From Campylobacterota bacterium (GTDB lineage Bacteria > Campylobacterota > Campylobacteria > Campylobacterales > Sulfurimonadaceae): a stretch of 64,000 nucleotides of DNA. Made by a program: the position numbers and the translations under genes. The first letter of the stretch is position 1. Every line of letters starts with the position of its first letter. This document shows positions 18,999-49,222 of the stretch, piece after piece. The stretch lies in contig JBFMGG010000007.1 of assembly GCA_040752835.1 (NCBI GenBank), positions 372,001 through 436,000 of the forward strand, read 5' to 3'. Under the pieces are notes generated by a model. The model did no database searches. It was not told the DNA's origin and saw only the letters and a list, made by a program, of their open reading frames with translations.

Positions 18999-20180
18999 TT
19001 ACAGCCCCTTGTGTTGTTCGGAGGGTATTGTAGGCGAACTGCGTTGCATTAATGTGGCATTTTTGAAGAGGTAGCGAAACGAAGTCCCCCTTACGGGGGT
19101 GGAAGAGATCTCGATTTCGACGTTTTCCTCTCGGCAGATCTGCGCCACGATACTCAGCCCCAGCCCGTAACCGCCCTTGGTTTCCGACTCGCGGTGAAAG
19201 CGTTCGAAAATCTTTTTTTTGTCGTGGATGAGGGGACCGTGGTTGCGGATTTCGAAGTAGATGTCGTCGTTGCGCATTCCGACGGTGATTGCGATTTCGC
19301 CGGGTCGGTAGGAGTATTTGATCGCATTGGAGAGGGTGTTGTCCACCAGCCGGGCGAGTTTCAGCTCCGAAAACATGATGGAGGGGAGGTTGGGCTGTCC
19401 CGTACGCATCGAAAGGGTCAGTTCGTTTACTTCGGCGATGCAGGTGAAATACTGTTTGCGTTCGGCAATGTAGGAGACGAGATCGATCACGACTTTCTGG
19501 TCGGGGATACGGTCGCGTTTCATGAGATAGGTCATGTCTTCGTAACTGTTCTGGATGATCCTCGCCCCCGCTTCGATCGCGCTGAGCGATTCGTTTTCGA
19601 TCCCCTCCATCCGAAGGAGGTCGATGTTGGTGATGATGACGGCCAGCGGCGTGTGGATCTCGTGGATCGCATTTTTGAGAAACCGGTCCTGATCGTTGAG
19701 GAGGCGCAGGGCGTATTCTCGCGATTCTTCGAGGAGTTTGCGGCTCTCGGCGAGGGCGTTGTCGTAATCGATCTGCTCGAGCATGTCGATGAGTGCGGTG
19801 AAAAGTTCGTCCTGGTTGATCGGTTTGAGAACGAAACGGTCGATCCCGCAGCGGATCGATTCGATGAACATCGTACTCTCTTCGGCCCCGGAGATGGCGA
19901 TGACCCGCTGCAGCGGATCGATTTTTTTCAGTCTTCCGGTGAGCTCAAGGCCGCTGCTGCGTCCGAGGTTGACGTCGGTGATCACCAGCAGGGGGGAAGG
20001 GGATTCGCGGAACGCGTGGTAGAGATCGAGCGCCTCCTCGGGATCGGAGGCGGTTTGGATGGAGTCGAAAAAATGGGACAGAAGCCGCTGAAGGCTCTCC
20101 TGCATCAGAGGATCGTCTTCGACGATCAACAGCGATTTGCCGGAGGAGAGTTTTTTCAGACGTGCAGCCTCGGAGACCAT
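18999..20180 (-). CDS. REC-histidine kinase hybrid, soluble
   Basis: This 393-residue cytosolic hybrid has an N-terminal receiver (IVEDDPLMQ; acceptor VVITDVNLGRSSG; Lys in FVLKPIN), a short coiled coil, then a HisKA domain (AIHEIHTPLAVI) and an ATPase domain (VDNTLSNAIKYS, GGYGLGLSIV). A receiver placed before the kinase usually lets another kinase tune its activity. It is the last gene of the operon that starts with the GAF-kinase at 23127. Its final codons contain the promoter for the next operon, so the two transcription units overlap. Confidence 0.88.
   Translation of the reverse strand: MVSEAARLKKLSSGKSLLIVEDDPLMQESLQRLLSHFFDSIQTASDPEEALDLYHAFRESPSPLLVITDVNLGRSSGLELTGRLKKIDPLQRVIAISGAEESTMFIESIRCGIDRFVLKPINQDELFTALIDMLEQIDYDNALAESRKLLEESREYALRLLNDQDRFLKNAIHEIHTPLAVIITNIDLLRMEGIENESLSAIEAGARIIQNSYEDMTYLMKRDRIPDQKVVIDLVSYIAERKQYFTCIAEVNELTLSMRTGQPNLPSIMFSELKLARLVDNTLSNAIKYSYRPGEIAITVGMRNDDIYFEIRNHGPLIHDKKKIFERFHRESETKGGYGLGLSIVAQICREENVEIEISSTPVRGTSFRYLFKNATLMQRSSPTIPSEQHKGL
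19027..19060 (-). promoter_or_regulatory. Cluster box + -10, before the OmpR-type regulator
   Basis: Minus strand: ATGCCAC-N4-ATGCAAC-N10-TACAAT. The -10 ends 29 bases before the regulator ATG. The whole element lies inside the coding 3' end of the upstream kinase gene. It is one of nine copies with identical spacing (others at 23155, 28800, 35758, 38313, 41703, 45034, 45710, 49189). Confidence 0.75.
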
Positions 20181-20198
20181 GGTACCTCTTTGTGCAGA

Positions 20199-21968
20199 TT
20201 AAACAGCTGCGGATATTATAGCTTCTTGTACGGGAAGTTTCGGTTCGACCGGACGGATTTTTTTCATGCAGGGGTCAAACGGCATCGGTGCGCCGAAGAG
20301 ATACCCTTGCGATTCGCATACGCCGAGGCTGCAGATCCGCTCGTGCAGCGCTTCGGCAGAGACGTATTCCGCGATCGTCCTGATCCCCAGGCGCTCGGCA
20401 AACGTGGTAAGAAGTTCGACGATGCTCTGGGAGACGTAGTCGGTGGCGATCGTTTCGATCAGCGAGCCGTCGAATTTGATGTAGTCGACGTTGAGTTTGG
20501 CGAGATGTTCGAAATTCGAATAACCCGACCCGAAGTCGTCGAGAGCCACTTTGCAACCGAGTTCTTTCAGTTTGGCGAAAAAATTCTGAATTTCGGCATA
20601 CGATTCGACCCCTTCGCTTTCGAGCAGTTCGAAGACGAGACGGTGCGGTTCGGGAAAAGAAGCGATCTGCTGGAAGAGGAATTCGCGGGTGGGGTGATGG
20701 GAGATGTCCTCGATCGAAAGGTTGATACTGACGCTGCATTCGGAATCTCTGAAATCGTTCAGGACCGACGCGATGACGAGTTTGGTGATCGTACGGTACA
20801 TCTTCGTCTCTTTGGCGATCGGTAGAAACTGTACCGGAGAAAGAAACTGCCCATCGGGCGTCATGAGGCGCAGGAGCGCTTCGTATTTGACGATGCGCAT
20901 CGTGGTATTGTCAATGATGGGCTGGTAAAACGGGACAAATCGGTTTTCAACGATTGCCCGTTTGATCGTATCGATGCACTTGAGCTTGTAGCTGTTGCCG
21001 TGGTTGTGGTGTTCCGCCGAACGATAGATGACGGTTCTCCCCTCTTTTTCGGCCTGGCGCAGTGCGAAATCGGCATGTGAAAGGCTCAGCTCGTCTCCGG
21101 GATGGACAATAGCGGCGTACATTTCCAGATACATTTTTTCCCCGGCCACGACGATTTCGGTCGCTTCGAAATGCTGGACGATAAGGTGAACGAGCGGTTC
21201 AAGACTCTGTACCCCCGCCGGCGAGAGGAGGGCGAAATGGGTTCCGCTGGTACGGTAAAGGCCGTGGTGCTCGACGTTCATCTCGTCGTTGACCAGACGC
21301 CGGAGGATGCTGGCGGTTTGTTGTAGAACGGCGTTTCCCGCATCATATCCGTACGTGTCGTTGAGATGTTTAAAGTCCCCGATTTTAAACAGGACGAGGG
21401 TATGGTTTGAATAGGTAAAAATATCCTGTTCCAGTTTTCCGAGCGAATACAGTCCGCTGATCCGGTCGAAGGTATAGGTTTGGATCGCTTCGCGGGTTTT
21501 GGTTTCGACGAGCTCTTCGAGATGTTGGCGGTATTGAACGTTCTCCCGCTCCATTTTGATCTTGCCGACCACTTTGTGGAGCGTAGCCATGGTCTGTTCC
21601 CGTTCCATCGGCTTGAACAGGTAGCCGTCGACGCCCAGCTGGATCGATCGGTGGAGGTAATTGACGTCTTTGTGGGCCGAGACGAGGAGGGTTGATAGGT
21701 CCGGATAGCGTTCCTTGATTTTTTCGATCATCGTAAGGCCGTCGAATTTGGGCATTTCGATATCGGTGATGACCAGATCGAAGGGAGTTTCAAGGGCCGC
21801 TTCAAGCCCTTTTTCTCCGTTGGATTCATGGCGGATATTTTCGAAAAAACGGCTCAGGAACGTGAGGTATTCGCGGCCGATAAGCGGGTCGTCCTCGACG
21901 TAGAGGACGTGCAGTCCTCTGGCGTTGTCGCGGATGGCGGCGATGAGTTTGGCGGGATCAGTCGACAA
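20199..21968 (-). CDS. REC-GGDEF-EAL protein with probably active EAL
   Basis: This 589-residue response regulator has a receiver (YVEDDPLIG; acceptor LVITDIEMPKFDG; YLFKPM), a degenerate GGDEF (YRTSGTHFALL, no catalytic motif) and an EAL domain with its key motifs intact (KYEALLRLM, INLSIEDI, FELLESEG, DDFGSGYSN, IAEYV). It should hydrolyse c-di-GMP in a phosphorylation-dependent way. The start chosen is TTG at 21968, 11 bases inside the upstream kinase gene, because AGGAGGT lies 5 bases before it; the longer frame has no ribosome site. The overlap implies coupled translation with the GAF-kinase. Confidence 0.88.
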   Translation of the reverse strand: MSTDPAKLIAAIRDNARGLHVLYVEDDPLIGREYLTFLSRFFENIRHESNGEKGLEAALETPFDLVITDIEMPKFDGLTMIEKIKERYPDLSTLLVSAHKDVNYLHRSIQLGVDGYLFKPMEREQTMATLHKVVGKIKMERENVQYRQHLEELVETKTREAIQTYTFDRISGLYSLGKLEQDIFTYSNHTLVLFKIGDFKHLNDTYGYDAGNAVLQQTASILRRLVNDEMNVEHHGLYRTSGTHFALLSPAGVQSLEPLVHLIVQHFEATEIVVAGEKMYLEMYAAIVHPGDELSLSHADFALRQAEKEGRTVIYRSAEHHNHGNSYKLKCIDTIKRAIVENRFVPFYQPIIDNTTMRIVKYEALLRLMTPDGQFLSPVQFLPIAKETKMYRTITKLVIASVLNDFRDSECSVSINLSIEDISHHPTREFLFQQIASFPEPHRLVFELLESEGVESYAEIQNFFAKLKELGCKVALDDFGSGYSNFEHLAKLNVDYIKFDGSLIETIATDYVSQSIVELLTTFAERLGIRTIAEYVSAEALHERICSLGVCESQGYLFGAPMPFDPCMKKIRPVEPKLPVQEAIISAAV

Positions 21969-23127
21969 GGAGCACCTCCTGATCGGAATGGTCCGGGATC
22001 GAAAGGGCAAAGACGCTTTCGCCTGAGCCGCTGCTGACCCGGATCGTCCCGCCGAGGTGTTTTTCGACGATGATCGCCGACATGTACAGCCCTAGCCCCG
22101 TGCCGTGTTTTTCGTCCTTGGTGCTGAAATAGGGCTCGAAAATCCGGGTGAGGATCTCCTGCGCAATCCCCCCGGCGTTGTCGCGGACGAGGAAGAGCGC
22201 TTTTTGGGATTGCGGCCGGAGTTCCAGCGTGATGCGGGGATGCGGGATGCTGTTCTCGGCGAAGGCGTCTTTGGCGTTGTTGAGGATGTTCAAAAAGACC
22301 TGCAGCAGCTCGTTTTTGTAGGTCGTAAACGCCATCGAGCGATCGCCTTCAAAATGCAACCGGATGCGCTGGCTTTCAAAACTTTTTCCCAGGATGCTGC
22401 TGATTTCGTCGCACAGTTCGCCGAAGTTCATCCGCTGCGGGAGTTTGTTCGGCCGGAAAAAGTTTCGGAAATCGTCGATGGTCTGCGAGAGAAACTGGAT
22501 CTGTTTGTCGATCAGCTCGAGGTCTTTGAGAAGCTGTTCCTCGTTCATTTCCCCCAGCTGGATACTGAGGATCGAGTTGCTGCTTACCAGCCCGATGATC
22601 GTGATCGGCTGGCGCCACTGGTGGGCGATCATGCCGATCATTTCCCCCATGATTGCCATGCGCGACTGGCTGATCATCAGTTTTTCGTTCGCTTCGTTAC
22701 GGTGGATCTGATGCTCGAATGCGCCGCTGAGTTCTTGGAGCCGTTTTTCATTTCGGCACGCGTCGATGGCGTTGGCCAGTTTCGTCGTGAACGTGACGAA
22801 CATTTCCCCGTAGGTTTGTGCCGCACGGGCGTCGGAGAAGAGAAACAAAAAATGCTCGATCCCCACCGGCACGTCCAAGACGCATCCCTCAACGCTCTTG
22901 TGGAGAGCGAAACCGTCGATGTCGGTGCTGAGCTTTTGGGGTAGAGGCACCCTCTGGCCTCTTGCGGCGAGAGGGGCCGAGGCGGGCGGAGCGGGAAGAA
23001 ACATGCCCCCCGCCGCACCGGTTTGGGAGACGAAGGTTTCGACAACTTCGGCGAGCATGTCGTCGAGGTTGAGCGAATTGCCGATGGCGCTTAGGCAGGC
23101 GTAGGCGACCTCAATGGACGGTTTCAT
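21958..23127 (-). CDS. Soluble GAF-type histidine kinase
   Basis: This 389-residue cytosolic kinase has an N-terminal GAF-like domain (about 1-150: VAYACLSAIGNSLNLDDML onward), a coiled coil, a HisKA domain with the H-box IGMIAHQWRQPITII, an N-box (ILNNAKDAF), and G-boxes (RDNAGGI, GTGLGLYMSAIIVEKH). The start at 23127 was chosen for the AAGGGAG ribosome site; a longer frame upstream has none and would run through the promoter. It is the first gene of an operon GAF-kinase, REC-GGDEF-EAL, REC-kinase, headed by the cluster box at 23155-23188. Confidence 0.87.
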   Translation of the reverse strand: MKPSIEVAYACLSAIGNSLNLDDMLAEVVETFVSQTGAAGGMFLPAPPASAPLAARGQRVPLPQKLSTDIDGFALHKSVEGCVLDVPVGIEHFLFLFSDARAAQTYGEMFVTFTTKLANAIDACRNEKRLQELSGAFEHQIHRNEANEKLMISQSRMAIMGEMIGMIAHQWRQPITIIGLVSSNSILSIQLGEMNEEQLLKDLELIDKQIQFLSQTIDDFRNFFRPNKLPQRMNFGELCDEISSILGKSFESQRIRLHFEGDRSMAFTTYKNELLQVFLNILNNAKDAFAENSIPHPRITLELRPQSQKALFLVRDNAGGIAQEILTRIFEPYFSTKDEKHGTGLGLYMSAIIVEKHLGGTIRVSSGSGESVFALSIPDHSDQEVLLVD

Positions 23128-23154: not shown

Positions 23155-23188
23155 ACTATAACGCCGTTGTGTGGCAATCACGTTGCAA
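23155..23188 (-). promoter_or_regulatory. Cluster box + -10, before the GAF-kinase operon
   Basis: Minus strand: TTGCAAC-N4-TTGCCAC-N10-TATAGT, with the -10 27 bases before the ATG at 23127. Confidence 0.78.
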
Positions 23189-23196: not shown

Positions 23197-25278
23197 TCAG
23201 CGCAGCAGCCCGTACTGGCGCAGGAGCTTTTCGTATTCGTCGTCTTTGCCGAACTCTTTGAGGTAATAGGCGGCAATGGTGCGGGCCATCGCGAGGGAGT
23301 TTTCGGCGAGCAGGTGCGAGAGGCGGTTGAACGTCGCCTGTCGGACGCACTCTTTGATCTTGGCCTGGAAAAAGGCGATGGAAGCGTAGGGAGCCATGAT
23401 CTGCTGCACCAGTTTGATCTCCCCTTTACCGACGGCGGCCATCGCGTCGCTCAAAACGGCATCGAAAGCGCGGTCGTATTCGGCAAATTCCCGCATCGAT
23501 TCGAGGTCGGGATGGGCGGAAACGAGCTCATAAGCCGCCTGGATGTCGTCGGCGAAGATATGGGCGAGAAGGGTGCGGCGCAGCTGGATCGCTTTGCCGA
23601 TTTCGGCAAGTTCATGGCGGTAAGGGAGGAAGACGGCGAGTTGTTTGATCCCCGCGATCGCGTCGTCGTAGCGGTTTTCGTCCACCAGGGAGCGGATCTT
23701 TTTGATCGACGCTTCGGCCAGGGTACATACTTTTTTGTAGAGCTCTTCGTGTTGCAAAAACGGGTTTTGTTCGGTGAGGAGAAAATACTCTTTGAACTTT
23801 TTCTCTTTGATCAATGCGTCGGACTGGAGGAAGACGGCATGATTTTTGAACAATGCGTGGATCATCTCTTTTTTCCCCGGCACGGAGGTGAAGGGTTTGA
23901 GCAGCTCCTGCGCTTTTGGGGCGTTGCGCAGCGGGTCGGACGAGAGGAGTTTTTTGGCCTCGGCGAAATGTTTGGTGAAATACAGTTCGAGTTTGCGCGC
24001 GCTGTCGGTTTTCGCCAGGTAGGGGGCTTTCTCGAGCATTCCGAACGCTTCGAGAAAGTTTTTGTTCTGCACCGTGAGCGCAAATTTTTCAAAATCTTTT
24101 TGTTTTTGCAGGAGAAATTCGAACTCTTTTTTGTATTCGCCATCACCCAGGAACGGCTCGGCAAACTCAAGCGCGGAGGCGGCGTTTCCGGTCGAGAAGC
24201 GGTTGATGATCTCTTTGAGAGTCTCCTCCCATGCTTCCTGGAACATCTCCGACATCGGGTGGATCGCCAGAAAGAGGTTTTTGTCGAGGCAGATTTTGGC
24301 CGTACGGTAGTTTTTGACCGACACCGCCTGCGCAAAATCGTCGATAAAAGCGTGCATGTCGATGACGTAGAGCCAGCCGTTTTCAAAGCCGATGTGGAGG
24401 GTCGAGCCTTCGATGTGGAGCGTGCCGATCCCTTTCTGGTCGAGTTTGAACGTCGAAAAGAGGGTGTTGTCGGAGAGTTTGACGATGTGCAGGTGGCCGC
24501 TGCGGGTCCCTACGATCGCGTAACGGCCGCTTTGGTCGAGGACGCACGACGTCGGCCACGAGGGGAAAAGCACTTTTTTGCGCATCTCTTCGGTTTTGAA
24601 ATCGTAGAGGTAGGAATACCCCTCTCTTCCGACCGCGTAGAGGGCTTTGGAATCGTTGAAGAAAAAAGCGTCCTGGACTACGTCTTCGAGGTACGTATGG
24701 AGACGCTCTTTCTGGAACCTGAGGTTCAGAACGCTCAGCGATTTGTCGTAAGCCGCGCAGGCAAGATGGCTTCCCCCCTCGTCGACCGCTAGGGAGGAGA
24801 TATAATCGGGGCGGGGTTTGAGCGACATGACCTTGCGCCCGTTCTCGGAGCTGTAGATGTAGACCTTTCCGTCGGTACCGCCGGTGATGAGGTATTGCCC
24901 CTCACGGCCGCAGAATCGCATGATCTCGGCCCGCTGGTCGTGCCCTTTGACGAAAAGGGGTTCAGGGGGCTCGGGAGGTTCTCCTTTGGTCTCTTCGCCC
25001 GAGGGGACGGGATCGTAGACGGGGCGGCACAGGGCACAGGCCCCGTTGTCCTTGGTACTGTAGGCGAGCACTCCCGTGGGGCTGAAAGAAGCCCCTTTCT
25101 GATAGGTGTGGAGCGGTTCGTCGGGTTCGCATACGGGGTCGTGACGCTTCATTTCCCAGCGCTCTTTGTCGACGGTATAGAAATTGCCCAGCGTATTGGC
25201 GAAATAGACGGCGTTGTCGTCCGCATGGACCGCTATGACGCTTCCTTGCACCTGGTAGGATCGGATGATTTTGATCAT
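23197..25278 (-). CDS. WD40-like propeller plus helical-repeat protein, function unknown
   Basis: This is a 693-residue cytosolic protein without signal peptide or membrane helix. Residues about 1-310 consist of repeated beta blades of WD40 character (YLITGGTDGKVYIYSSENGR, YAIVGTRSGHLHIVKLSDNT, HIGFENGWLYVIDMHAF). Residues about 320-693 are alpha-helical repeats. A cysteine pair (GACALCRPV) lies in the propeller. A propeller followed by an alpha-solenoid resembles eukaryotic coatomer and intraflagellar-transport scaffolds; that is only a likeness of layout. It is the last gene of a kinase/receiver operon (18 bases after the REC-PAS gene), so a scaffold for phosphorelay or receptor proteins is a reasonable guess. 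Confidence 0.75.
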   Translation of the reverse strand: MIKIIRSYQVQGSVIAVHADDNAVYFANTLGNFYTVDKERWEMKRHDPVCEPDEPLHTYQKGASFSPTGVLAYSTKDNGACALCRPVYDPVPSGEETKGEPPEPPEPLFVKGHDQRAEIMRFCGREGQYLITGGTDGKVYIYSSENGRKVMSLKPRPDYISSLAVDEGGSHLACAAYDKSLSVLNLRFQKERLHTYLEDVVQDAFFFNDSKALYAVGREGYSYLYDFKTEEMRKKVLFPSWPTSCVLDQSGRYAIVGTRSGHLHIVKLSDNTLFSTFKLDQKGIGTLHIEGSTLHIGFENGWLYVIDMHAFIDDFAQAVSVKNYRTAKICLDKNLFLAIHPMSEMFQEAWEETLKEIINRFSTGNAASALEFAEPFLGDGEYKKEFEFLLQKQKDFEKFALTVQNKNFLEAFGMLEKAPYLAKTDSARKLELYFTKHFAEAKKLLSSDPLRNAPKAQELLKPFTSVPGKKEMIHALFKNHAVFLQSDALIKEKKFKEYFLLTEQNPFLQHEELYKKVCTLAEASIKKIRSLVDENRYDDAIAGIKQLAVFLPYRHELAEIGKAIQLRRTLLAHIFADDIQAAYELVSAHPDLESMREFAEYDRAFDAVLSDAMAAVGKGEIKLVQQIMAPYASIAFFQAKIKECVRQATFNRLSHLLAENSLAMARTIAAYYLKEFGKDDEYEKLLRQYGLLR

Positions 25279-25296
25279 GGCACCGCTCCTTTCGTG

Positions 25297-26103
25297 TTAC
25301 TCGCCCGAATCGATCAGGCAGAGAATGTAAAACCGTTTCGGTCCTTCCGTACGCATCCTTTTGAGTTTCAGACGATAGCTCGACGCTTCGAATTCAAACG
25401 CGAGCTCTCCCCCCATGTAGAGGTGTTCTTCTTTCCAGTCACAAAACGACGGGGAGGTCCTGGTCATCGCGTCGTGGAAAAAGAGCGATTTGAAATCGAG
25501 CTCTTTGGTGAGGAGTTTCGGATAATGTTCGGTTCCCGCGACGAGAGAAAGCAGGTCGCTGTTGCAGGCGGCGACGGTATCGTTCTCGTCGACGATGAGA
25601 GAGGGGAGCGGTATGTTGTCGACGAGGGTCTGAAACGAGAACTGAAAAGTGTGTTCGACCAGTTCACGCCGCTCGCTGCGCTCTTTTTCGGCACGGTAGT
25701 TTTCCTGTTCGATTTTCAGAGCGAGTTCGTAGAGGATCGTGTCGAGTTTGTCGAAGATAATCGGTTTGATCATGAAGTGTTCGACCCCGATTTCGATCGC
25801 GCGGAGCATATACGCCGCTTCGGAATGGGCGGTGATCATGATGCACTTTTGCGAGGGATTGATCTGTTTGATCTTTTCGAGCATGTCCAGCCCGTTCATG
25901 ACGGGCATTGTCTGATCGGAGATGACGATATCGACCGGCCGGAGCGAATCGCGGTAAAAGGCCAGCCCCTCCTCCCCATCGGCGGCGAGGGAAACGTTTC
26001 CGACACTGTCACCGAGCATGTCGTAAACCATCTCGCGGATCAGCCGTTCGTCGTCGACAAACAGGATATGGAGTTTTTTCATGAGGTCGTGTCTGCTTTG
26101 CAT
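25297..26103 (-). CDS. REC-PAS-like response regulator without DNA-binding domain
   Basis: This 268-residue protein has a receiver (ILFVDDERLIREM; acceptor DIVISDQTMPVMNG; Lys in FMIKPI), a short helix, and a C-terminal PAS-like domain (LVDNIPLPSLIVDENDTVAA). No enzymatic or DNA-binding output is seen, so it probably signals by protein contact. ATG at 26103 was chosen because AAGGA lies 7 bases upstream; an inner ATG at 26082 lacks a site. It lies between a REC-kinase (4-base gap) and the WD40 gene. Confidence 0.8.
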   Translation of the reverse strand: MQSRHDLMKKLHILFVDDERLIREMVYDMLGDSVGNVSLAADGEEGLAFYRDSLRPVDIVISDQTMPVMNGLDMLEKIKQINPSQKCIMITAHSEAAYMLRAIEIGVEHFMIKPIIFDKLDTILYELALKIEQENYRAEKERSERRELVEHTFQFSFQTLVDNIPLPSLIVDENDTVAACNSDLLSLVAGTEHYPKLLTKELDFKSLFFHDAMTRTSPSFCDWKEEHLYMGGELAFEFEASSYRLKLKRMRTEGPKRFYILCLIDSGE

Positions 26104-26107
26104 CGGG

Positions 26108-27388
26108 TTATCCTTGTATAAAGTCGGTAATCGGGAGGTCGAGGGTGAGGCACGCCCCCTCAGCCGTGTTGGAAGCGCCGATCGTTCCGCCGAGGCGTTC
26201 TTCGACGATGCGTCGGGACATATACAGGCCGATCCCGGTCCCTTGCGCTTTGTGTTTGGTCGTAAAATAGGGTTCGAAGATTTTGTCGATGACCTCTTCG
26301 TCGATCCCTCCGCCGTTGTCGCATACGTTCAGCCGCAGGCGGTTGTCGTCGCCAATGGAGGCATCGACACGGATCACTCCCCGGGAAATGCCGTGCGAGA
26401 GGATCGCGTCCTTGGCGTTGTTGAGGAGGTTGAGGACCACTTGTTTGATATCTTCCGGAAAGCCGTAAAGGCGGATTTGTGCCGAAATATCCGCTTCGAT
26501 CTTCACCCCGGAGAGGGCGAAACTTTTTTCGAGCAGGCTGATCGTACTGCGCAGCGTGTCTTCGAGGATGTAGGTTACTTTTTCGCGGTTGGGTTCGACC
26601 TGCCCGCGGAAGTCGTCGATCGTCTGGGACATGTGCTGGATGGTCTGGAGCGCGTCTGAGAGGCTTTGGGCCATGATCTCATCGGTAAGGGTGCCGTTTT
26701 TGTGGTGACGGCTGATTTTCTGGAACAGCATCGAGATGATGTTGAGCGGCTGGCGCCACTGGTGGGCGATGTTGCCGATCATCTCCCCCAGTGCGGCGAG
26801 TTTGGCCTGATGGAGCATCAGGGCGTCTTTCTGGCGGTTTTTCTGGATCTCCTCCTCGACCCGGCGTTCGAGGTCGCGGTTGAGACAGCGGATTGTCTGC
26901 GTCGCGTCGTAACTCAGGGAGAGGGAGTAGACGAGCTGATAGATCTCTTCGTTGTTGAACGGTTTGCGGATATAGAAAATGTTGCTTTTGAGGCATTCGA
27001 GAATCTCTTTGTTGCTGCGGTCGGAATAGGCGGTCGCGATGATGATGTTAACGTCGGGATCGATCTCTTTGAGCCGTATCGAGGTCTCCAGCCCGTCGAT
27101 GCCGTTGGGCATCCGCATGTCGACGATGCACACGGGAATACGGTTCCCCCCTTCGTATTCGCGTCGGAAGATTTCGACCCCTTCCAGGCCGTTGTTGGCC
27201 TGGTGGAGATGAAAATCGATCACTTTTTCCCCGCCGTCGATGGCACTGCAGTCGATGTCGTGCAGTTTTTCGAGCTTCATGATCGCGTCTTCGAGGCTGG
27301 TCCGTTTATAGGGGGAGAGGATCGACGCGTAGGCGTCGAGGATCGTCGTATCGTCGTCAATGGTGAGAATGTGTGTGGTGAGTTCCAT
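26108..27388 (-). CDS. REC-histidine kinase hybrid, soluble
   Basis: This 426-residue hybrid kinase has an extended N-terminal receiver (LTIDDDTTILDAY; acceptor CIVDMRMPNGIDG; YIRKPFN) with an insertion of about 35 residues after helix 1, then a coiled coil, the H-box IGNIAHQWRQPLNII, an N-box (LLNNAKDAI) and G-boxes (CDNGGGIDEE, GTGIGLYMSRRIVEE). It is cytosolic. The gene abuts its upstream neighbour by 1 base. The kinase part is closely similar to the GAF-kinase at 21958-23127, so the two probably arose by duplication. Confidence 0.88.
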   Translation of the reverse strand: MELTTHILTIDDDTTILDAYASILSPYKRTSLEDAIMKLEKLHDIDCSAIDGGEKVIDFHLHQANNGLEGVEIFRREYEGGNRIPVCIVDMRMPNGIDGLETSIRLKEIDPDVNIIIATAYSDRSNKEILECLKSNIFYIRKPFNNEEIYQLVYSLSLSYDATQTIRCLNRDLERRVEEEIQKNRQKDALMLHQAKLAALGEMIGNIAHQWRQPLNIISMLFQKISRHHKNGTLTDEIMAQSLSDALQTIQHMSQTIDDFRGQVEPNREKVTYILEDTLRSTISLLEKSFALSGVKIEADISAQIRLYGFPEDIKQVVLNLLNNAKDAILSHGISRGVIRVDASIGDDNRLRLNVCDNGGGIDEEVIDKIFEPYFTTKHKAQGTGIGLYMSRRIVEERLGGTIGASNTAEGACLTLDLPITDFIQG

Positions 27389-27389
27389 G

Positions 27390-28766
27390 TCATCCCTCCG
27401 GAGTCAGGGTGATCGTAAAGAGCGACCCTTTGCCGATCCCCTCGGATTTGCAGGTGATCGTATGGCCGTTTCCGGTGAGGAAATTGGCAAACGAGTGGAG
27501 TCCCAGACCGTGGCCGTCGTGTTTGGTGGTAAAGCCTTGCAAAAAGACGTTTTTGATCGTCGTCTCATCCATCCCGATCCCGTTGTCGTAGACGTCGATG
27601 ACGATGTCCTCGGCCATGACGATGGAGTCGTTCATCATCATGTCGAGTTCGAAGAAACTTCCCTCACGGGGGACGCTTCGGGCACTGATTTTGATCATTT
27701 TGGAGAGGATGTATTTGTCGTTGTAGGCGGTATTGACGGCGTGAATCGAATTCTTCAGGAGATTGAGCAGGCCGTTGAAGAGGTGAATGCGGTTGATGTT
27801 GAACGTGAGTTCGGAGGGGACGTCGAGCATCAGCAGAATGTCGTGGCGGAAGAGCTGCGGTTCGATCACGCTGCGGATTTCGCCGATCAGCTCGGAGAGT
27901 TTGACCACTTCGTCCATGTTCGTTTTCGTATTTTTGTACAGTTCCTGCTGGAAAGCGATCGTCGTAGCGATGTTGCTGATCGATTTCTGGAGGCTTTTCA
28001 TGTCGGTGTCGAGGACGTTTTTGATCGTGTCGGTGAGGGAGGATTCGATGATGTTGAGGCTCATCTCCACTTTTTTGAGGTTTTTGAGGTATTCCTCGGT
28101 CGCTTCCTCCCGGATGAAACAGCGGTTGCCCAGCAGCTGCTCTTTGATGTGGTCGAAATATTTGAAGAAAAACTGCATCGGTTCGAGGTTTTTGATGATC
28201 CGTTCCGACAGATGCTGCGCTCCGGTGACAATGTTTCCGATGTTGTGGATGTATTCGCTTGTGACGTCGAAAATACCCTGTTTATACGCCAGCTCTTTGG
28301 AGATGCTGATTTCGTTTTTGTGGAGTTCGACGACGTTGGTGATGTCGGTGAGTGAGAGGATGTAGCTTTCGCGGTGTTTGTCGGAACTCCCCTCGGTATG
28401 GTTGATCACCGTGGAGATGATCGTAAAATAGAGGAGTTTCCCCTCGATCGTCATTTCGACTTTGGGAAGCATCCGTTCGTCTTTGAACGTCAGGAATTCG
28501 AACCATGCGTCGGTCGGGCATGAACCGTAGGTATTGGTGATCGGGAGGGTCTGGATTTTTTGCGGGTAATGCGCGTCCATGACCGAATCGAACACCTGAT
28601 GGAAATAGTTGTTGGTCTGAAGCAGCTCGCCTTTGGGGTTGACCAGCAAGATCGCGGTGTGGGCGGTCGCGTCGAAAAGGCTTTTGTTGATTTGTTCCAG
28701 ATCCTGCTGCAGACGGTTGATATCGGTTTCGTATTGGCGGGTGATCGGGGACTGGGTCGTATACAT
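27390..28766 (-). CDS. PAS histidine kinase with atypical H-box
   Basis: This 458-residue cytosolic kinase has an N-terminal coiled coil, a PAS-like domain (about 30-150), and a non-standard phosphorylation region SEYIHNIGNIVTG, where the His is followed by Asn-Ile-Gly-Asn rather than E-[IL]-[RK]-TP. The ATPase domain is normal (NGLLNLLKNSIHAV, YDNGIGMDE, GHGLGLHSFANF). It heads a four-gene operon (kinase, REC-kinase, REC-PAS, WD40 protein) with AAGGA before the ATG and the cluster box upstream. Confidence 0.85.
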   Translation of the reverse strand: MYTTQSPITRQYETDINRLQQDLEQINKSLFDATAHTAILLVNPKGELLQTNNYFHQVFDSVMDAHYPQKIQTLPITNTYGSCPTDAWFEFLTFKDERMLPKVEMTIEGKLLYFTIISTVINHTEGSSDKHRESYILSLTDITNVVELHKNEISISKELAYKQGIFDVTSEYIHNIGNIVTGAQHLSERIIKNLEPMQFFFKYFDHIKEQLLGNRCFIREEATEEYLKNLKKVEMSLNIIESSLTDTIKNVLDTDMKSLQKSISNIATTIAFQQELYKNTKTNMDEVVKLSELIGEIRSVIEPQLFRHDILLMLDVPSELTFNINRIHLFNGLLNLLKNSIHAVNTAYNDKYILSKMIKISARSVPREGSFFELDMMMNDSIVMAEDIVIDVYDNGIGMDETTIKNVFLQGFTTKHDGHGLGLHSFANFLTGNGHTITCKSEGIGKGSLFTITLTPEG

Positions 28767-28799: not shown

Positions 28800-28833
28800 A
28801 TTATGGCGCTTTTGTGTGGCAAGTATGTTGCAA
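28800..28833 (-). promoter_or_regulatory. Cluster box + -10, before the PAS-kinase/WD40 operon
   Basis: Minus strand: TTGCAAC-N4-TTGCCAC-N10-CATAAT, with the -10 33 bases before the ATG at 28766. Confidence 0.78.
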
Positions 28834-28846: not shown

Positions 28847-29401
28847 TCAGTAGAGGTCGGAAATATCGTAAAAATGCATTTTTTCAAAAAAACGGACCAC
28901 TTTGCGGAGCTTTTCGCGCGAGGGCGGTTCGGTTTCGACCAGCAAAAGCCCGGTGTAATGGTCGATCATCTCGTGACGCAGCGCGAAAAAGCCGCTCTGG
29001 TTGAGCGAATCGCCCGAGAGCGCTTTGTGGATCGCCTGATAGATGCGGTTCTTTTCGGTCGGCGATAATTCGGCGTTTTCCAGGCGGATCACGTCCGAAC
29101 ATTCCCGCAGCGCCTTGTCGAAGGGGTATTCGTGTTTGGGATCGTTTGCCGCTGCGGCGTGCGCGGGGAGTTTCAGACGCGGTTTGGGAGCATTGTAGAG
29201 ATAACGGTAGCGGGCCGTAAGGTTGTACTGATGAATCAGGGAGTCCGCCGCCGCCGCAGGCCCCAGGAAATACTGGGGGAGGGTGTTTTTGAATTCGACG
29301 CTCACTTTTCCGCCCGGCGTCGCATACCATCGGATTATGGCGGCTCCTTTGGCTTTTGCATCGGCGATGACCGCCTCGAGGAGGCGTTCTTTGGGAGTCA
29401 T
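28847..29401 (-). CDS. Hypothetical protein, last gene of the che operon
   Basis: This 184-residue soluble protein was not recognised. It starts MTPKERLLEAVIADAKAKGA and has a conserved-looking middle (NLTARYRYLYNAPKPRLKL) and a helical C-terminal half. It follows cheB by 15 bases and shares its transcript. No receiver, PAS, membrane or catalytic motif is seen. Its place suggests an accessory to receptor adaptation, without direct evidence. Confidence 0.65.
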   Translation of the reverse strand: MTPKERLLEAVIADAKAKGAAIIRWYATPGGKVSVEFKNTLPQYFLGPAAAADSLIHQYNLTARYRYLYNAPKPRLKLPAHAAAANDPKHEYPFDKALRECSDVIRLENAELSPTEKNRIYQAIHKALSGDSLNQSGFFALRHEMIDHYTGLLLVETEPPSREKLRKVVRFFEKMHFYDISDLY

Positions 29402-29416
29402 GGGGATTTCCGGCTC

Positions 29417-30475: not shown

Positions 30476-30483
30476 CCGCTCTC

Positions 30484-31940: not shown

Positions 31941-32418
31941 TCGTCGCTCCCTCACCGGCGCGGGAGAGGCGCTGCATCTCGTCTTTGTCGAGGATACGGT
32001 CGATGTCGAGGATGACGATCATTTTCTCCTCTTTTTTGAACAGCCCCTTGAGGTATTCGGGTGCGATGGAGGTCCCCATGTCGGGGGCGGGGTAGAGGCG
32101 GTCGAGATCGACGTTTTCCATATCCGAGACTTCGTCGACGACGAGGCCGATCATGCGCATATCCTGAGTTTTGACGGCGATGATGATCGTGCGGTTCGTA
32201 TAGATCGGATCGTCGTTGACGTTGAAACGGACCCTCAGATCGATGACCGGGGCCACTTCGCCGCGCAGGTTGATCACCCCCTTGACCCAGCGGCTGGCGT
32301 CGGGAATCGGGGTGACGGTCGGATAGGTGAGAATCTCGCGCACCTTGTTGATCTGAATACCGTAGGTTTCGTTGCCGAGTTTGAAAGTCAGAAGCTGGTT
32401 GCTCTCGATGATGGCCAT
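31918..32418 (-). CDS. cheW: Chemotaxis coupling protein CheW
   Basis: This 166-residue adaptor links receptors to CheA. It is a single CheW-like SH3-type domain with the family segments QLLTFKLGNETYGIQINKVR, GVINLRGEVAPVIDLR and IGLVVDEVSD. It is cytosolic. It lies between cheA (9-base gap) and cheR (23-base overlap) in the operon. Confidence 0.95.
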   Translation of the reverse strand: MAIIESNQLLTFKLGNETYGIQINKVREILTYPTVTPIPDASRWVKGVINLRGEVAPVIDLRVRFNVNDDPIYTNRTIIIAVKTQDMRMIGLVVDEVSDMENVDLDRLYPAPDMGTSIAPEYLKGLFKKEEKMIVILDIDRILDKDEMQRLSRAGEGATNVYSASA

Positions 32419-32427
32419 GGCGTTCTC

Positions 32428-34473: not shown

Positions 34474-34481
34474 AACCTTCC

Positions 34482-34850: not shown

Positions 34851-34871
34851 ATTTTTCTCCGTATTTGGGTA

Positions 34872-38312: not shown

Positions 38313-38346
38313 ACTATAAAGAAACAGTGTTGCGTTTTTGTTGCAA
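38313..38346 (-). promoter_or_regulatory. Cluster box + -10, before the CZB receptor gene
   Basis: Minus strand: TTGCAAC-N4-ACGCAAC-N10-TATAGT, with the -10 69 bases before the ATG at 38243. The second repeat has two changes (TT to AC). Confidence 0.7.
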
Positions 38347-41702: not shown

Positions 41703-41736
41703 ATTATCCGACATTAGTGTTGCAAGTTTGTGGCAA
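41703..41736 (-). promoter_or_regulatory. Cluster box + -10, before the PAS/soluble receptor operon
   Basis: Minus strand: TTGCCAC-N4-TTGCAAC-N10-GATAAT, with the -10 77 bases before the ATG at 41625. Confidence 0.78.
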
Positions 41737-43051: not shown

Positions 43052-44986
43052 TTATTCCCCGTCTGCGGATTTCGCGGTTTCCGAGGGGAGACGGTCCATC
43101 AGGGCAAAGAGCTCGGTACTTGCCTCTTCCATATCGCGGAAGTTGGCGATGATCTCGCTTGCGTGGGTCAGGCAGAGCTGCCCGGTGGTGTCTTTGATGA
43201 AAGCGAGATTTTTATTGACGCGGTCATGGACGATTTCGTGCGGCCGGGTCATCTGCGCGAAGCTCGTCGTTTTGCCGAAGCGCCGACGCCCCTCTTCGTT
43301 ATACCATTGGCCGATGCTGCACTGCTGCGTCGTCAGCACCTCAAGACGGGGCTCACAGCGCATGAGGCTGTTGTAGGCGCGCGATTTGTAGATGATGTGG
43401 TCGATTTTCGCCAGGACGATGAAGACGCTGTTTTCCATCATGTACGACGAATTGACGATGCTTGTCGACGTCTCGTTGAGCCGGATCAGGGTTTTTTCGA
43501 AATCGTGGATGTGCTCGGTCGAGGATTCGACCACCCGGTTCATCTCTTCGGCACTTTTTTCGATGTCGCTCATATCCTGTTTGAGCGAGTTGATCGAGAC
43601 GGCGATTTCACCCGTGGCTTTGTGCGTCCGCTCGGCCAGTTTGCGCACTTCGTCGGCGACGACCGCGAAACCGCGTCCGTGCTCGCCGGCCCGTGCGGCT
43701 TCGATCGCGGCATTGAGCGCGAGGAGGTTGGTCTGCTCGGCGATGTCGGTGATGAGCCGGATGATCGAATTGATCTCCTGCGTGCGCGAAGCCATATGGA
43801 TGATCGCCTCGTTGTTTTCGTTGACGCTTTGTTTCATCGTTTCGAGTTCACGTACGATCATTTCGATCGTTTGACGGCTGTCGTCGGAGAGGTTGGCGGC
43901 CTCTTTCGTCGATCGGGTCACCTCTTTGAGATTGGCGATGTTGTGCTCGAGATTGTGCTGGATGACCGCGAGCGATTCGGTCACTTCGACCGAGAGCTTG
44001 CTCAGCTCCGAATTGAGCGCGTCGCGCTGCTTTTTCCCTTCCTGCTCTTCCATTACACGGATCGAATTGCGGACCAGTTCGGTCGCGTCGATGAACTCGC
44101 CGTGCATCCCTTGCGAACTCAGCGGTACGCTAAAATCCCCGCGCGTCGCGTTGCCGATGGTGAGATTGATCCGGTGGATAAAAGTCTCTATCTGGCTGAT
44201 GAGCTGTTCGAGCGAATGCCCCATGAGGCCGAGTTCGGTCCCAGGAGCCGCCTCGATGCGGGTCTGGGCAAAATTACCTTCGGCGACGCGGCGTATGACG
44301 AGGGTAAACGATTCGAGTGCCGAAACGATGGAACGCTGGACGAGATTGGCGAACACGAAAATCATCACCGCAACCGCGATCCCCGAGACCATGACCGCCG
44401 TTTTGAAAAAGAGGATGTTGTCGTGCATCTCATCGGTAGCGGCGATGAAGCGGTCCCGCTTCATTTTGACCACTTTTTCGAAACTTTCGCGTGAGGCTTC
44501 GGCATAGGGAGTCAGCTCTTTTTTGTACTGGCCGTAAATGGGGATCGTGTTGGCCGAAATGAGGGTTTTATCCATTTTGCCGAGGGTCTGCATCAGCGCC
44601 ATCGTGTTGTCCAGAAACGCGAACGTCGTCCGCTTGGCTTCGGCGATCAGCGATTCGGACTCCGAGTCGGCCAGTTTTTCGAGTTCGGCGAAGTTCTTTT
44701 TGATTTTTTCGGATCGCTCCTGGAGTTTCACCATGTTTTTGTCATAGCTGTTGCCGAGCATGATGTCGCGGCTAGTGCGGCTGACGTAATTGAGGTCTTT
44801 TTCGATTTCTAGGGTATACAGCGCTCCGGCCGTGGCGTTTTGCTGCAGCTGGGTATAGTCGGATTCGATTTTGCTCAGGGCGAAAAAGACGAATACCGCA
44901 GCGAAGACGACCGCCGCCGTGACGCTGAGGACGAGATAGGTCATCCGCTGTCGGATGGAGAGCCGTTCGAACAAAGACGTGTTCAT
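43052..44986 (-). CDS. Membrane chemoreceptor with CZB domain
   Basis: This 644-residue methyl-accepting protein has TM1 at about 15-37, a periplasmic helical sensor (about 38-195), TM2 at about 197-219, HAMP, a signalling domain with the tip [19 protein letters not shown], and a C-terminal CZB domain ([30 protein letters not shown]). It shares its tip type with the TlpD-like receptor, not with the WESF receptors. The start [10 protein letters not shown] at 44986 has AAGGGGG upstream; an upstream in-frame Met has none. The gene has its own cluster box. Confidence 0.93.
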
Positions 44987-45033: not shown

Positions 45034-45067
45034 ATCGTAACGCTTTAATGTTGCAAATGTGTGGCAA
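45034..45067 (-). promoter_or_regulatory. Cluster box + -10, before the 644-residue receptor gene
   Basis: Minus strand: TTGCCAC-N4-TTGCAAC-N10-TACGAT, with the -10 47 bases before the ATG at 44986. It starts just 12 bases after the stop of the receptor gene's upstream neighbour (POTRA). Confidence 0.75.
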
Positions 45068-45077: not shown

Positions 45078-45683
45078 TCAGTTTTTCCCTTCGCGGGCGT
45101 AGCGGGCTTTGAAAGATGGGTATTTTTTGATCGCGACGGTGACGATGCCGTTTTCGTCGGCCTGCGCGATTTCGGCGTAGGCGAGTTCGTAGCGGCGGGA
45201 ACGGTAATAATCTTGGACCGTTTTAACCAGTTTCGCGAGTGCGGCGTCGTTGTGCTCGGTCCCCAGCAGCGGTTCGATCTCTTTCATCAGACGGTAGGTG
45301 GAAATCTTTTCGTTTCCGGTGAAAAAGACGCGGTTGATCAGCCCTTTGTGCAACGGCCGCCGCTCCATTTCACCGATGGAACGCCGGTTGAAATCGGTAT
45401 ATTTTTTGATACTGACGGTCACGGTGCGGTTTTTTTCGTCGATGGAGGCGACCGAAGCGTAGGCGAGGCTGAAATTGTTTTTACGGTAAAACGACTCGAC
45501 GTCTCCTGCGATCCGCTCAGCGGTGGAAGCGTCAAGCGTTTTGCCCAGATAGGGCTGAACCAGCGCATTGAGTTTCTTGGTCGGGATTTTTTCGTTACCT
45601 TCGAAAACGATTTTGTCGATGGGGGTCGAAGCCCAAAGGGAGAGGGATAAGAGTGCGAGTGAAAGCAAGACGTTAACGCGCAT
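45078..45683 (-). CDS. Exported protein with two POTRA-like repeats
   Basis: This 201-residue secreted protein has a signal peptide (MRVNVLLSLALLSLSLWA) and two repeated units of POTRA type: IDKIVFEGNEKIPTKKLNAL ... FYRKNNFSLAYASV, and INRVFFTGNEKISTYRLMKE ... YYRSRRYELAYAEI. POTRA domains occur in BamA, TpsB and FtsQ proteins and bind unfolded or partner proteins, but here no barrel or membrane domain follows, so it would be a free periplasmic protein. The start at 45683 has AAGGAG. It has its own cluster box, tying it to chemotaxis genes for unknown reasons. Confidence 0.8.
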   Translation of the reverse strand: MRVNVLLSLALLSLSLWASTPIDKIVFEGNEKIPTKKLNALVQPYLGKTLDASTAERIAGDVESFYRKNNFSLAYASVASIDEKNRTVTVSIKKYTDFNRRSIGEMERRPLHKGLINRVFFTGNEKISTYRLMKEIEPLLGTEHNDAALAKLVKTVQDYYRSRRYELAYAEIAQADENGIVTVAIKKYPSFKARYAREGKN

Positions 45684-45709: not shown

Positions 45710-45743
45710 ATTGTATGACGTTAGTGTGGCAAGTGTGTTGCAA
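45710..45743 (-). promoter_or_regulatory. Cluster box + -10, before the POTRA gene
   Basis: Minus strand: TTGCAAC-N4-TTGCCAC-N10-TACAAT, with the -10 26 bases before the ATG at 45683. Confidence 0.78.
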
Positions 45744-45768: not shown

Positions 45769-48015
45769 TTAGAGATTCCCGCCGCAGTTGAGGGATTTGA
45801 TGGCATCGAGTCCGCTGAAAACGCCGCGCGTCGCCTCTTCAAGATCGCGCGTGATCCGCTCGAGAGTCTGGGAAGAGGCACGGGATAGATCGGCTTCGAT
45901 GTAGGACTGCACCCCGCTGTGTACTTTTTCATGGGCGCTGAGCAGCGCATTCCACGCTTCGCCCTGGGCAAACGGCGCCGAAGCGTGTTCATCGATCCAT
46001 TTGCCAAGATTGCACTCGTGGTGGTTGCTCACCCGCCAGACGCTGTGTTCGCTTTTGAGTTTTTTGTAGTTGTTCTCTTTGAAATTGATGTGGTCCATTT
46101 TGAGTTTTGTCGTGTCGAACATTATTTGTACGTCACAAATTTGTCGTTCGACGCTTTGGTCGTATTTGACACGAGAGAGCATATGGCCAAAGTGTTCCGT
46201 TTTATCGAGGATTTCGTTGGCTATCTGGGCGACGTTGTTGGCGGTTTTGGCGTTTTGCTGCGTCATCTGGTCTAGCTGGCTGACGGCATCGTTGATCTGG
46301 TTGATACCCGCCATCTGTTCACGGCTTGCGTTCACTACGTCGCGCACCATCGCGTCGGTTTCGGTGATCTTGCGGGCGATCGTCGAGAAACTTTCCATCA
46401 TGTTCTGGGAGGTTTCCAGACCCCCTTGCGATTTTTCGCGCGCGCTGCGGGCGAGCTGCTGGATCTGCGCTGCGGCGTCGGCGCTGCGGTTGGCGAGGTT
46501 GCGCACTTCCTGGGCGACGACGGCGAACCCTTTGCCCGCTTCCCCGGCGGTGGCCGCTTCGACGGCGGCGTTTAGCGAGAGGATGTTGGTCTGGAACGCG
46601 ATGTTGTCGATGATGTCGACCGCCTGGTTGATCGCTTCGGTCGCGCGGACGATTTCATGCATCGCTTCGAGGCTTTCACCCGCTACGGTGTTACCCCGCT
46701 CGGCGGCATGCATCGCTTCCTGGGCCGTACGGGCCATCGTTTCGGCTTTCGAGGTATTGGATGCGACGTTCGAGGTGAGCTCTTCGATAGCCGCAGCGGT
46801 CTCTTCGAGGCTCGAAGCCTGCTGGTTGGCGCTCGCACTCAGTTCGTCGCCCGAAGAGGCGAGATGATGGGCGTCGCGGGTAAATTCGTGCGAAAATTTT
46901 GCAATCAGGGCAAAAATTTCGCTGTTGGAGACTGTCATCGCTCGAAGTGCCTGGTCTATTGACGCAAACGACCCTTTCGCGTCGCGCGATTCTCCCGATT
47001 GGCTGTAGTCGCCCTGGGCAAAACCGATGAATGTTGTTATCAGTTTTCCGAAGGTGAGCTCGATTTCGTCAAGGAACGTATTGAGCGTGCGGGAGAGCTG
47101 CTGGAGATTGGGATCGCTGTACCGGGTGGCGATACGGTGGTGGAGAAATCCTTTGCTGGCGTTTGAACAGATGGTTTCGAAATCGAGGATCGCCTGCTGC
47201 TGTTCGTTGAACTTCGCTTCCGCTTCTTTGATATTGCGGTTGATCATGGCTCCCATTTTCCCGAATTCGTCGCTTCCCAGATCAGGCAGGGGCTGGGCGT
47301 GTTTCTCTTCTCCCCCCAGAAAACGGAAAAATCCGAGCAGGCCGTTCTGCGCCAGCGAGAGGGATTCCTTGATCTGCGAGGCGATCATGAGCATGATAAC
47401 GATCATCGCGGCGATGCCGATCGCTCCGCCGATGCCCGCGACGATTCCCCACATGAGAATATCGTTTTTAAAGGTCTCTTTCATTCGTGCGGCTTCGTCC
47501 ATTTTAGACGCTACGAGGCTCTTCATCGATTCGCGCGACGCTTTGGCCAGCGGTGAAAAATTGGCATGATAAAAACGGTAGGTGGCTCCCAGATCGTGCG
47601 GTCCGTTTCGGAGGGTACGCATCAGATCGCGCGACGACGTGATAAACACCATCGCGTCGTTTTTGGCTTTTTTGCACACGCGTCGTTGCGCCGCGTCGCT
47701 GGTCGTCTGCTCCATCCGTGTAAAGAGGGTCTCGATCTTCGCGTACGTGTCGTCGAGTTTGTTCAGGTTTTCGTTCAGATCGCCGCCGAGCATGATCTCA
47801 CGGGTGATACGGCTGAAATAGTTCAGCTCTTTTTCGGTCTCCAGTACGGCTTTGACCCCTTCGAAGCTTCGCTGATCGAAGCTTTCGAACTCTTTGTTGA
47901 GCGAATTGGTCGCCAGCAGGAAAATCAGTGTTTCGAAAATCACGACCGCAGAGGCGAGCACCATGATGAAGCCGAGTTTTTTCGAGACCGGTATACCGGT
48001 AAGCCATTGTTTCAT
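45769..48015 (-). CDS. Membrane chemoreceptor with CZB domain, no tail peptide
   Basis: This 748-residue methyl-accepting protein has TM1 at about 14-36, a helical periplasmic sensor to about 190, TM2 at about 192-216, HAMP and an extended HAMP-like region, a signalling domain with the tip [19 protein letters not shown], and a CZB domain ([29 protein letters not shown]). It closely resembles the 794-residue receptor but ends SLNCGGNL after the CZB domain, without linker or WESF. It is co-transcribed with the receiver protein upstream (15-base gap). Confidence 0.92.
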
Positions 48016-48030
48016 TGCCGAATCCTTGTG

Positions 48031-49143
48031 TTAGAATAATTCGATATCGTTCTCCGACGATACCGCGTGCTGATTGCTCAAAAGTCCTTCCAGGCTGAGG
48101 GCATCGCTGATGAGCGAATTGTCCAGATAGTGGATGTCCTCGGCACGTCGGTAGTGCAGTACCTCTTTACGCCATCGTTCGAGGTTGTCAAAGAGCGAGG
48201 AGAGCATCGGCATGATCGCGGGGAGTTTCCCCGGATCGTCGACCGATTCGAAGGTTCTGGCCAGTTGCTGTATCCCGTACGAGAGGGCTCCGAACTGGGG
48301 GATCAGCTCGATTTCCCGCGCGTAATCGCGCAGGATGTCCGTGAGGCTTGAAAGCGTCTCCTGGGTCGCGTTGCGCTCGGCATTGGTAAGCAGGAGATGG
48401 AAGCTGTCCTCGAGCAGTTCGAGCTCTTCATCGGTTTTATCCAGTTCGAGCGGGTAAGCGCCGTGGAACTCTTCGGCACTCATTTTTTCATTGCGCGTGT
48501 AGAGCATCACCTTTTCGCTTTCGTTGAGCTCACGCCCGGCGGCGTGATCGTTGTAGAGCTCGCACGTCTGCGGGGGAACGAAGGTCTGGGCACTTTCGGC
48601 GCGGGGCTCCCTGGCGGCATTACGTTTGTCGCGCTTGTATTCGTCGAGCGCGCAGCTGAGTTCCAGATTCGCTTCGCGCAGTTCGCGGTTCGATTCTTCG
48701 AGCATCGTGCTGAAATAATCGAGCATCTTCTGATCGTACACCGCCTGGCACGTTTTTTCGAGCTGCATGAGCACTTCGTTCATTTTGAGCGGCTTGACGA
48801 TGAAAGCGTCGATCCCGATATTGATCAGCTGCAGCAGCCGTTCGCTCTCCGAATTGCCCGAAACGACGACGATCCGCTGCTGCGGATTGAGCTCGCGGAT
48901 GTTTGCGGCCAGCTCGGTGCCGCTCATGACGGGCATGGCGAGGTCGGTCACGACAAGATCGTAGGGTGCGGACTGATAGAGCATGATCGCTTCGACCCCG
49001 TCGGATGCAATGTCGATGGTTTTGAAAAAACGCTGTAGAAAAGATTGCAGTTGTTTTTGGAGGAGAGGATCGTCCTCTACGAGCAGCAGTCGCATCTCAA
49101 ATCCGATCTCTTTGAGATGTTTGGCTACAAAGCTGTAATCCAT
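48031..49143 (-). CDS. Receiver protein with the cluster-specific C-terminal domain
   Basis: This 370-residue cytosolic protein has an intact receiver (LLVEDDPLLQKQ; acceptor LVVTDLAMPVMSG; Lys in FIVKPLK), a coiled coil (LEESNRELREANLELS), a variable middle, and a helical C-terminal domain of about 130 residues homologous to that of the 38366-39718 protein. It ends in ENDIELF. It heads an operon with a chemoreceptor. No known output domain is seen. A link between receptor and CheA, or a phosphate sink, is possible. The start may be the inner Met of FEMRLLLVEDD, since the first 16 residues precede the receiver. Confidence 0.78.
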   Translation of the reverse strand: MDYSFVAKHLKEIGFEMRLLLVEDDPLLQKQLQSFLQRFFKTIDIASDGVEAIMLYQSAPYDLVVTDLAMPVMSGTELAANIRELNPQQRIVVVSGNSESERLLQLINIGIDAFIVKPLKMNEVLMQLEKTCQAVYDQKMLDYFSTMLEESNRELREANLELSCALDEYKRDKRNAAREPRAESAQTFVPPQTCELYNDHAAGRELNESEKVMLYTRNEKMSAEEFHGAYPLELDKTDEELELLEDSFHLLLTNAERNATQETLSSLTDILRDYAREIELIPQFGALSYGIQQLARTFESVDDPGKLPAIMPMLSSLFDNLERWRKEVLHYRRAEDIHYLDNSLISDALSLEGLLSNQHAVSSENDIELF

Positions 49144-49188
49144 TCGGCCATTCCTTGATAATTGAAAATAATACGGATCATGGAAGGC

Positions 49189-49222
49189 ATTGTGCCACTA
49201 TAGTGTCGCAACTGTGTTGCAA
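49189..49222 (-). promoter_or_regulatory. Cluster box + -10, before the receiver/receptor operon
   Basis: Minus strand: TTGCAAC-N4-TTGCGAC-N10-CACAAT, with the -10 45 bases before the ATG at 49143. Confidence 0.72.

Follow-up and report, generated by a model that had tools for sequence, protein, structure and literature searches.

A direct-repeat promoter box and its candidate OmpR/PhoB-type activator mark an accessory chemosensory regulon in Campylobacterota

Results

The locus lies in a 2.13-Mb genome that belongs to Sulfuricurvum by its nearest relatives. In the 64,000-nucleotide stretch that we analysed (the window), promoter after promoter carries the same element: two TTGCMAC half-sites separated by 4 bp and followed, after a further 10 bp, by a −10 hexamer. 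The genes and boxes are as follows; all che assignments are from Pfam and NCBIfam.

49189–49222, minus: box and −10 (TTGCAAC-N4-TTGCGAC-N10-CACAAT), promoter of 48031–49143 and 45769–48015
48031–49143, minus: receiver-domain adaptor, behind the 49189–49222 box
45769–48015, minus: CZB chemoreceptor, behind the 49189–49222 box
45710–45743, minus: box and −10 (TACAAT), promoter of 45078–45683
45078–45683, minus: exported protein of 201 aa with POTRA domains, behind the 45710–45743 box
45034–45067, minus: box and −10 (TACGAT), promoter of the HAMP/CZB chemoreceptor gene 43052–44986
41703–41736, minus: box and −10 (GATAAT), promoter of a PAS-only gene (stop at 41221) and the chemoreceptor gene 39813 to about 41204
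38313–38346, minus: weak box (TTGCAAC/ACGCAAC) and −10 (TATAGT), promoter of 35859–38243
35859–38243, minus: 4HB-HAMP-CZB chemoreceptor, behind the 38313–38346 box
35758–35791, minus: box and −10, promoter of the accessory che operon
28847–35729, minus: accessory che operon, in the order 285-aa protein, cheY, cheA, cheW, cheR, cheD, cheB
34482–34850, minus: cheY
32428–34548, minus: cheA
31918–32418, minus: cheW
31104–31955, minus: cheR
30484–31107, minus: cheD
within 29417–30946, minus: cheB
28800–28833, minus: box and −10 (CATAAT), promoter of the operon 23197–28766
23197–28766, minus: kinase, receiver-kinase, receiver and beta-propeller operon, behind the 28800–28833 box
23155–23188, minus: box and −10 (TATAGT), promoter of the regulator-containing operon
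21958–23127, minus: kinase, regulator-containing operon
20199–22010, minus: REC-GGDEF-EAL protein, regulator-containing operon
19027–19060, minus: internal box and −10 (TACAAT), inside the kinase coding sequence, 63 bp upstream of the regulator start
18999–20180, minus: receiver-histidine kinase, adjoining the regulator gene
18317–18997, minus: OmpR/PhoB-type response regulator, the candidate activator (from Pfam domains, recognition helix and co-occurrence)
16666–18324, minus: REC-GGDEF-EAL protein, regulator-containing operon
15552–16673, minus: kinase, regulator-containing operon
14261–14294, plus: tenth box and −10 (GATAAT), promoter of the HD-domain gene 14319–15542

The first-pass annotation had described nine minus-strand copies, and their coordinates and spacings (4 and 10 bp, invariant in all nine) are exactly as it gave them; it missed the tenth. 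Its statement that the copies precede the first gene of an operon fails for the one at 19027, which lies inside the 3′ end of a kinase gene, ahead of the regulator gene. Mixed pairs of TTGCAAC and TTGCCAC, which it took as usual, are common in the window, but the boxes of relatives mostly have TTGCAAC in both half-sites. Two copies are weak, at 19060 (ATGCCAC/ATGCAAC) and at 38346 (TTGCAAC/ACGCAAC).

Several of the products deserve comment. The exported protein encoded at 45078–45683 has two POTRA domains without a barrel and is a conserved target of the box, also in loci L034, L070 and L074. Large WD40-like beta-propeller proteins recur in these signalling operons (23197–25278 in the window; L034, L039, L041 and L075). 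The pairing of a PAS-only protein with a chemoreceptor resembles the bipartite CetB/CetA system (PMC2628428), a likeness by resemblance only. The gene at the head of the che operon (34872–35729, 285 aa) has no Pfam or PDB relative, and it is only a guess that its product is a CheZ-like phosphatase.

The genome has three CheA genes. The CheA of the window combines Hpt, HATPase and CheW domains but lacks a receiver; it is thus a second CheA without the receiver fusion of the F3 class, and it comes with its own cheY, cheW, cheR, cheD and cheB. Another CheA, encoded on contig C3 by an open frame of 843 aa, is F3-like by length, and a pattern search of the genome found no box near it. With two other CheA genes present and no box at the F3-like one, the che operon of the window is an accessory rather than the primary system. 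The idea of a chemotaxis and phosphorelay regulon needs narrowing: it takes in the che operon, receptors, kinases, c-di-GMP enzymes and an adhesin, while the primary F3 chemotaxis genes lie outside it.

The box is far from a chance pattern. Allowing up to three mismatches, TTGCMAC-N4-TTGCMAC has 30 matches in the window, whereas shuffled sequence gives 13.7 ± 4.5. In pattern searches of the whole genome, six of the seven exact boxes fall inside the window's block, and the box including the −10 (up to three mismatches) has 16 matches against 7 for a reversed-pattern control. Across 228 genomes the true pattern gives 226 matches and the reversed control 5. The spacing is equally strict. In 289 kb made up of the window and 14 homologous loci, all 20 exact half-site pairs are offset by 11 bp, where about 0.03 would be expected per offset, as are 48 of 52 relaxed pairs.

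The −10 is fixed too. Among 57 distinct boxes, drawn from the window or via the regulator protein without regard to the −10, position −11 is A in every case and position −7 is T in 55. The wider consensus, from a set in which part of the sequences were picked with a −10, reads wwTTGCAACAnAnTTGCAACACTAA-N6-TAnAAT. Inspection of the box set revealed no −35 beyond chance at these promoters, and an extended −10 is absent as a feature (TG in only 11 of 83 boxes). No third or inverted half-site was found at the box, and we rejected an inverted-repeat or three-half-site operator on this ground. What is present is the 7-4-7 direct repeat of the pho box (PMC4415409).

The regulon reaches beyond the block. 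Pattern searches of the genome located four further promoter-placed boxes:

C7:569839: box before a PAS protein, then a membrane chemoreceptor
C4:20515: box before a CZB chemoreceptor
C7:236448: box before a TPS-domain exoprotein
C7:559726: degenerate box 75 bp before a paralogous OmpR-type regulator gene, followed by a good −10

The boxed paralogous regulator occupies locus L167 (G000:C7:559726–560460), and the box before it suggests a putative regulator cascade. Two more pattern matches, C6:194792 and C8:108955, look like chance. At least 14 promoters in the genome, counted by pattern searches and not by a full matrix scan, share the box placed at the exact distance. The proposal of a single activator for this block is supported, and to its territory at least four more promoters must be added.

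In relatives, the box stands before the same classes of gene and also before GGDEF, OmpA and prepilin-peptidase genes, and the regulon is present in at least three genera. The box persists when operons are rearranged: the HD-domain gene lies apart with its own box in the window but comes third in the PAS/receptor operon of L034 and L035, under a single box. Neither the box nor such a regulon was found in the literature that was searched, which agrees with the initial impression that no described regulon of Campylobacterota has this box. The regulon is new, its type of regulator (PhoB/OmpR) already known, and the box and target set are unusually clean.

The protein encoded at 18317–18997 combines a receiver (PF00072, E = 1.1e-20) with a C-terminal Trans_reg_C winged helix (PF00486, E = 3.2e-12), the architecture of the OmpR/PhoB family. 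The nearest folds of the modelled regulator are DNA-bound KdpE and OmpR/PhoB homologs; model confidence is low in the last 20 residues. The phosphorylation site is intact, with E7, D8, D51, S79 and K101 invariant across 15 orthologs. The recognition helix is the third helix of the winged helix, residues 191–204 in the model. Its sequence is TIRSLVNR[VL]R in all orthologs, even at 62% identity (TIRSLVNRVR in the window), as compared with TIRAE[VI][SN]RLKK in the commonest paralogs. We rejected membership of PhoB or CtrA because the regulator scores below both equivalog cut-offs (65.7 bits against 296.2 for PhoB, TIGR02154; 89.4 against 350 for CtrA, NF045991). One genome (G038) has 19 boxes and two orthologs, which share 76–77% identity with the window protein.

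The regulator gene has a box of its own. The copy at 19027 falls within the final codons of the preceding gene, that of the kinase 18999–20180, 63 bp before the regulator start, and a box is kept at 63–64 bp, inside the preceding kinase gene, in most orthologs; L041 has it in degenerate form, and L044 (G020) lacks it despite the regulator. This conservation supports a predicted autoregulatory site. From its adjacency, the 18999–20180 product is likely the cognate kinase.

Box and regulator mostly occur together and are mostly absent together. Of the 41 genomes of the genus, 14 encode an ortholog, and boxes are found in all 14 of these versus 4 of the 27 without. In the family (228 genomes), boxes occur in 24 of 25 genomes with an ortholog versus 22 of 203 without (Fisher 1e-18), and in the twenty-fifth ortholog genome (G099) the promoter of the regulator itself contains a box with two mismatches, making 25 of 25. 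On a tree built from a single protein, FlhA, the regulator changes at least seven times, and about six of seven independent pairs agree with none opposed, so that phylogenetically independent support is modest (sign test, p about 0.03).

Nor does any other OmpR-type regulator behave in this way. The genome has 17 OmpR-type matches; leaving out a truncated frame (C7:437599), we compared 16 across five complete genomes, two box-bearing and three box-free, and only 18317–18997 is present in both of the former and absent from all three of the latter. The other 15 were rejected as readers of the box on this profile, which covered OmpR-type regulators. The first reading, that one OmpR/PhoB-type activator switches on the block, has strong support, and so has its candidate, the regulator 18317–18997. 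The evidence consists of the direct repeat with its 11-bp period and its fixed distance to the −10, the co-occurrence over 228 genomes, the elimination of 15 of the other 16 OmpR-type regulators and the conserved autoregulatory box.

Two other candidates were considered for what the boxes track. CheA was rejected: five regulator-bearing genomes without a window-class CheA still keep boxes. Motility as such was also rejected, since flagellar FlhA occurs in 35 of the 41 genomes and the boxes are therefore not simply a marker of flagellated species.

There are exceptions. One genome estimated to be 100% complete (G151) has six boxes and no ortholog, and boxes without an ortholog also occur in G215, in the incomplete MAGs G040 and G207 and in a few others. 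In such genomes another paralog may read the box, or the gene may lie in an assembly gap; some of the G151 boxes precede orthologs of regulon genes, which points to another reader there or to an unassembled regulator. Moreover, the regulator is linked to many of its targets, and some of the correlation can arise when the whole cluster is gained or lost at once. Indeed, G036, whose FlhA is nearly identical to that of G038, lacks the regulator and has one box versus 19. It also lacks the window-class CheA, so that the correlation stems in part from entire modules being gained or lost.

Related patterns occur elsewhere. A variant box, TTGCAACGTTTTTGCAACG, is found ahead of exported-protein genes in G077, G080 and G223 (genera g15 and g17; L345, L349, L353 and L356), genomes without a regulator ortholog; its −10 keeps the usual distance, and the whole looks like a related but separate regulon. 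In G151 and G207 (L342, L346, L360, L361, L363 and L365), several near-identical copies of the box stand before short leaders of about 35 codons that begin MLHKQIILAAHIDTTF and are followed by (CA)n or (GA)n runs. This has the look of a family of phase-variable genes that share the promoter box.

Discussion

The box is very probably the operator of a dedicated, self-activating OmpR/PhoB-type regulator, encoded at 18317–18997, that activates an accessory sensory network through a phosphorelay. The probable phosphate donors are the receiver-kinase encoded next to the regulator and the kinases of the same operons. Once the regulator is phosphorylated, two protomers would bind head-to-tail on the two 7-bp half-sites with an 11-bp period, an arrangement that the geometry of the box fits. 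Only 10 bp separate the end of the downstream half-site from a sigma-70 −10, which suggests that the bound dimer would substitute for −35 contacts and recruit RNA polymerase. One phosphorelay would in this way switch on the accessory array (cheYAWRDB with CZB and CetA/B-like receptors), and would also induce its own kinases, enzymes of c-di-GMP turnover, surface proteins and the regulator gene itself. What we infer are direct binding, an activating and not a repressing effect, phosphate transfer from the neighbouring kinase and the physiological signal.

Such a geometry, a phosphorylated dimer on an 11-bp direct repeat that stops 10 bp short of the −10, is the one PhoB adopts on pho boxes. Contact of PhoB with sigma is established. 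Sigma-70 promoters of Campylobacterota often lack a −35, and a missing −35 alone is therefore no proof of activation. This blunts the original argument that the box replaces the −35 as PhoB/OmpR sites do: no −35 exceeds chance, as that argument held, but such promoters are common in this phylum. We favour activation because the distance to the −10 is invariant. It is improbable that the regulator binds the box as a repressor whose activity falls on phosphorylation. The site covers the −35 region and overlaps that of the polymerase, and promoters of this phylum can work without a −35. Nevertheless, a 10-bp gap to the −10 fixed at nearly all sites is expected of a sigma-contacting activator and needless for a repressor, and the promoters have neither an extended −10 nor a −35 to drive them alone. 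Equally doubtful is a scheme in which another OmpR-type regulator operates the box, for example the 36%-identical paralog G000:C7:559801, and 18317–18997 is a mere target. The degenerate box in the paralog's own promoter and the box-bearing genomes without an 18317–18997 ortholog speak for it. However, the paralog finds a reciprocal best hit in neither of the two box-bearing complete genomes tested, its relatives at similar identity are found in box-free genomes, and its recognition helix is different.

We give almost no credence to two further explanations. The TTGC of the second half-site is like a sigma-54 −12 element and might betray −24/−12 promoters of an alternative sigma factor, with no activator site at all; yet the obligatory GG at −24 is found in 0 of 57 boxes, which led us to reject sigma-54 promoters, and nearly all have a sigma-70 −10. 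That we are dealing with a repetitive element or a coincidence, with no regulatory role, might be guessed from nine copies clustered in one region. Such an origin is scarcely believable when the flanks are unrelated whereas box and −10 are kept, and when boxes precede unlinked, differently arranged targets in three genera.

Returning to the regulator 18317–18997 as dedicated activator, we can imagine, tentatively and with some doubt, that array, phosphorelay, c-di-GMP enzymes and activator form a portable sensory module. This would be gained and lost as a unit with its own promoter code, lending the box to resident receptors, adhesins and a paralogous regulator. Extra chemosensory arrays are common in bacteria, and their role and control are obscure; a single box marks a co-regulated set and, shared by receptors, kinases and c-di-GMP enzymes, shows which genes work together. 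If we are right, removing one regulator in cultured S. kujiense should silence the whole accessory network and spare F3 chemotaxis.

Sulfuricurvum and Sulfurimonas have extra F classes beside F3 (PMC9321776), and the window operon is such an extra, non-F3 system. According to the same study, no experimental data exist on Campylobacterota that carry multiple chemosensory classes; it differs from ours in that it reports no promoter box or regulator, the word 'promoter' being absent from its main text.

One of the closest known systems is PhoB of E. coli, an OmpR-family response regulator that reads one box common to many operons, likewise two 7-nt direct repeats 4 nt apart in 11-nt units (PMC4415409). 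The half-sites differ, TTGCMAC here and CTGTCAT in the pho box, as do the targets, here chemosensory and c-di-GMP genes, and the present regulator fails the PhoB cut-off (65.7 against 296 bits). Within Campylobacterota, PceP (RR2) of Sulfurospirillum is also an OmpR-family regulator with a direct repeat near the −35 and self-activation, but its box is CTATW-N17-CTATW and its targets serve tetrachloroethene respiration (PMC7755780). In the CtrA phosphorelay of Alphaproteobacteria, an OmpR-family regulator governs motility and chemotaxis genes through a 4-mer direct repeat with an 11-bp period (TTAA-N7-TTAA; PMC4046655), to be compared with TTGC-N7-TTGC here. The present regulator is no CtrA (89 against 350 bits), no cell-cycle role is implied, and, in contrast to CtrA, its targets are an accessory array and not flagellar genes.
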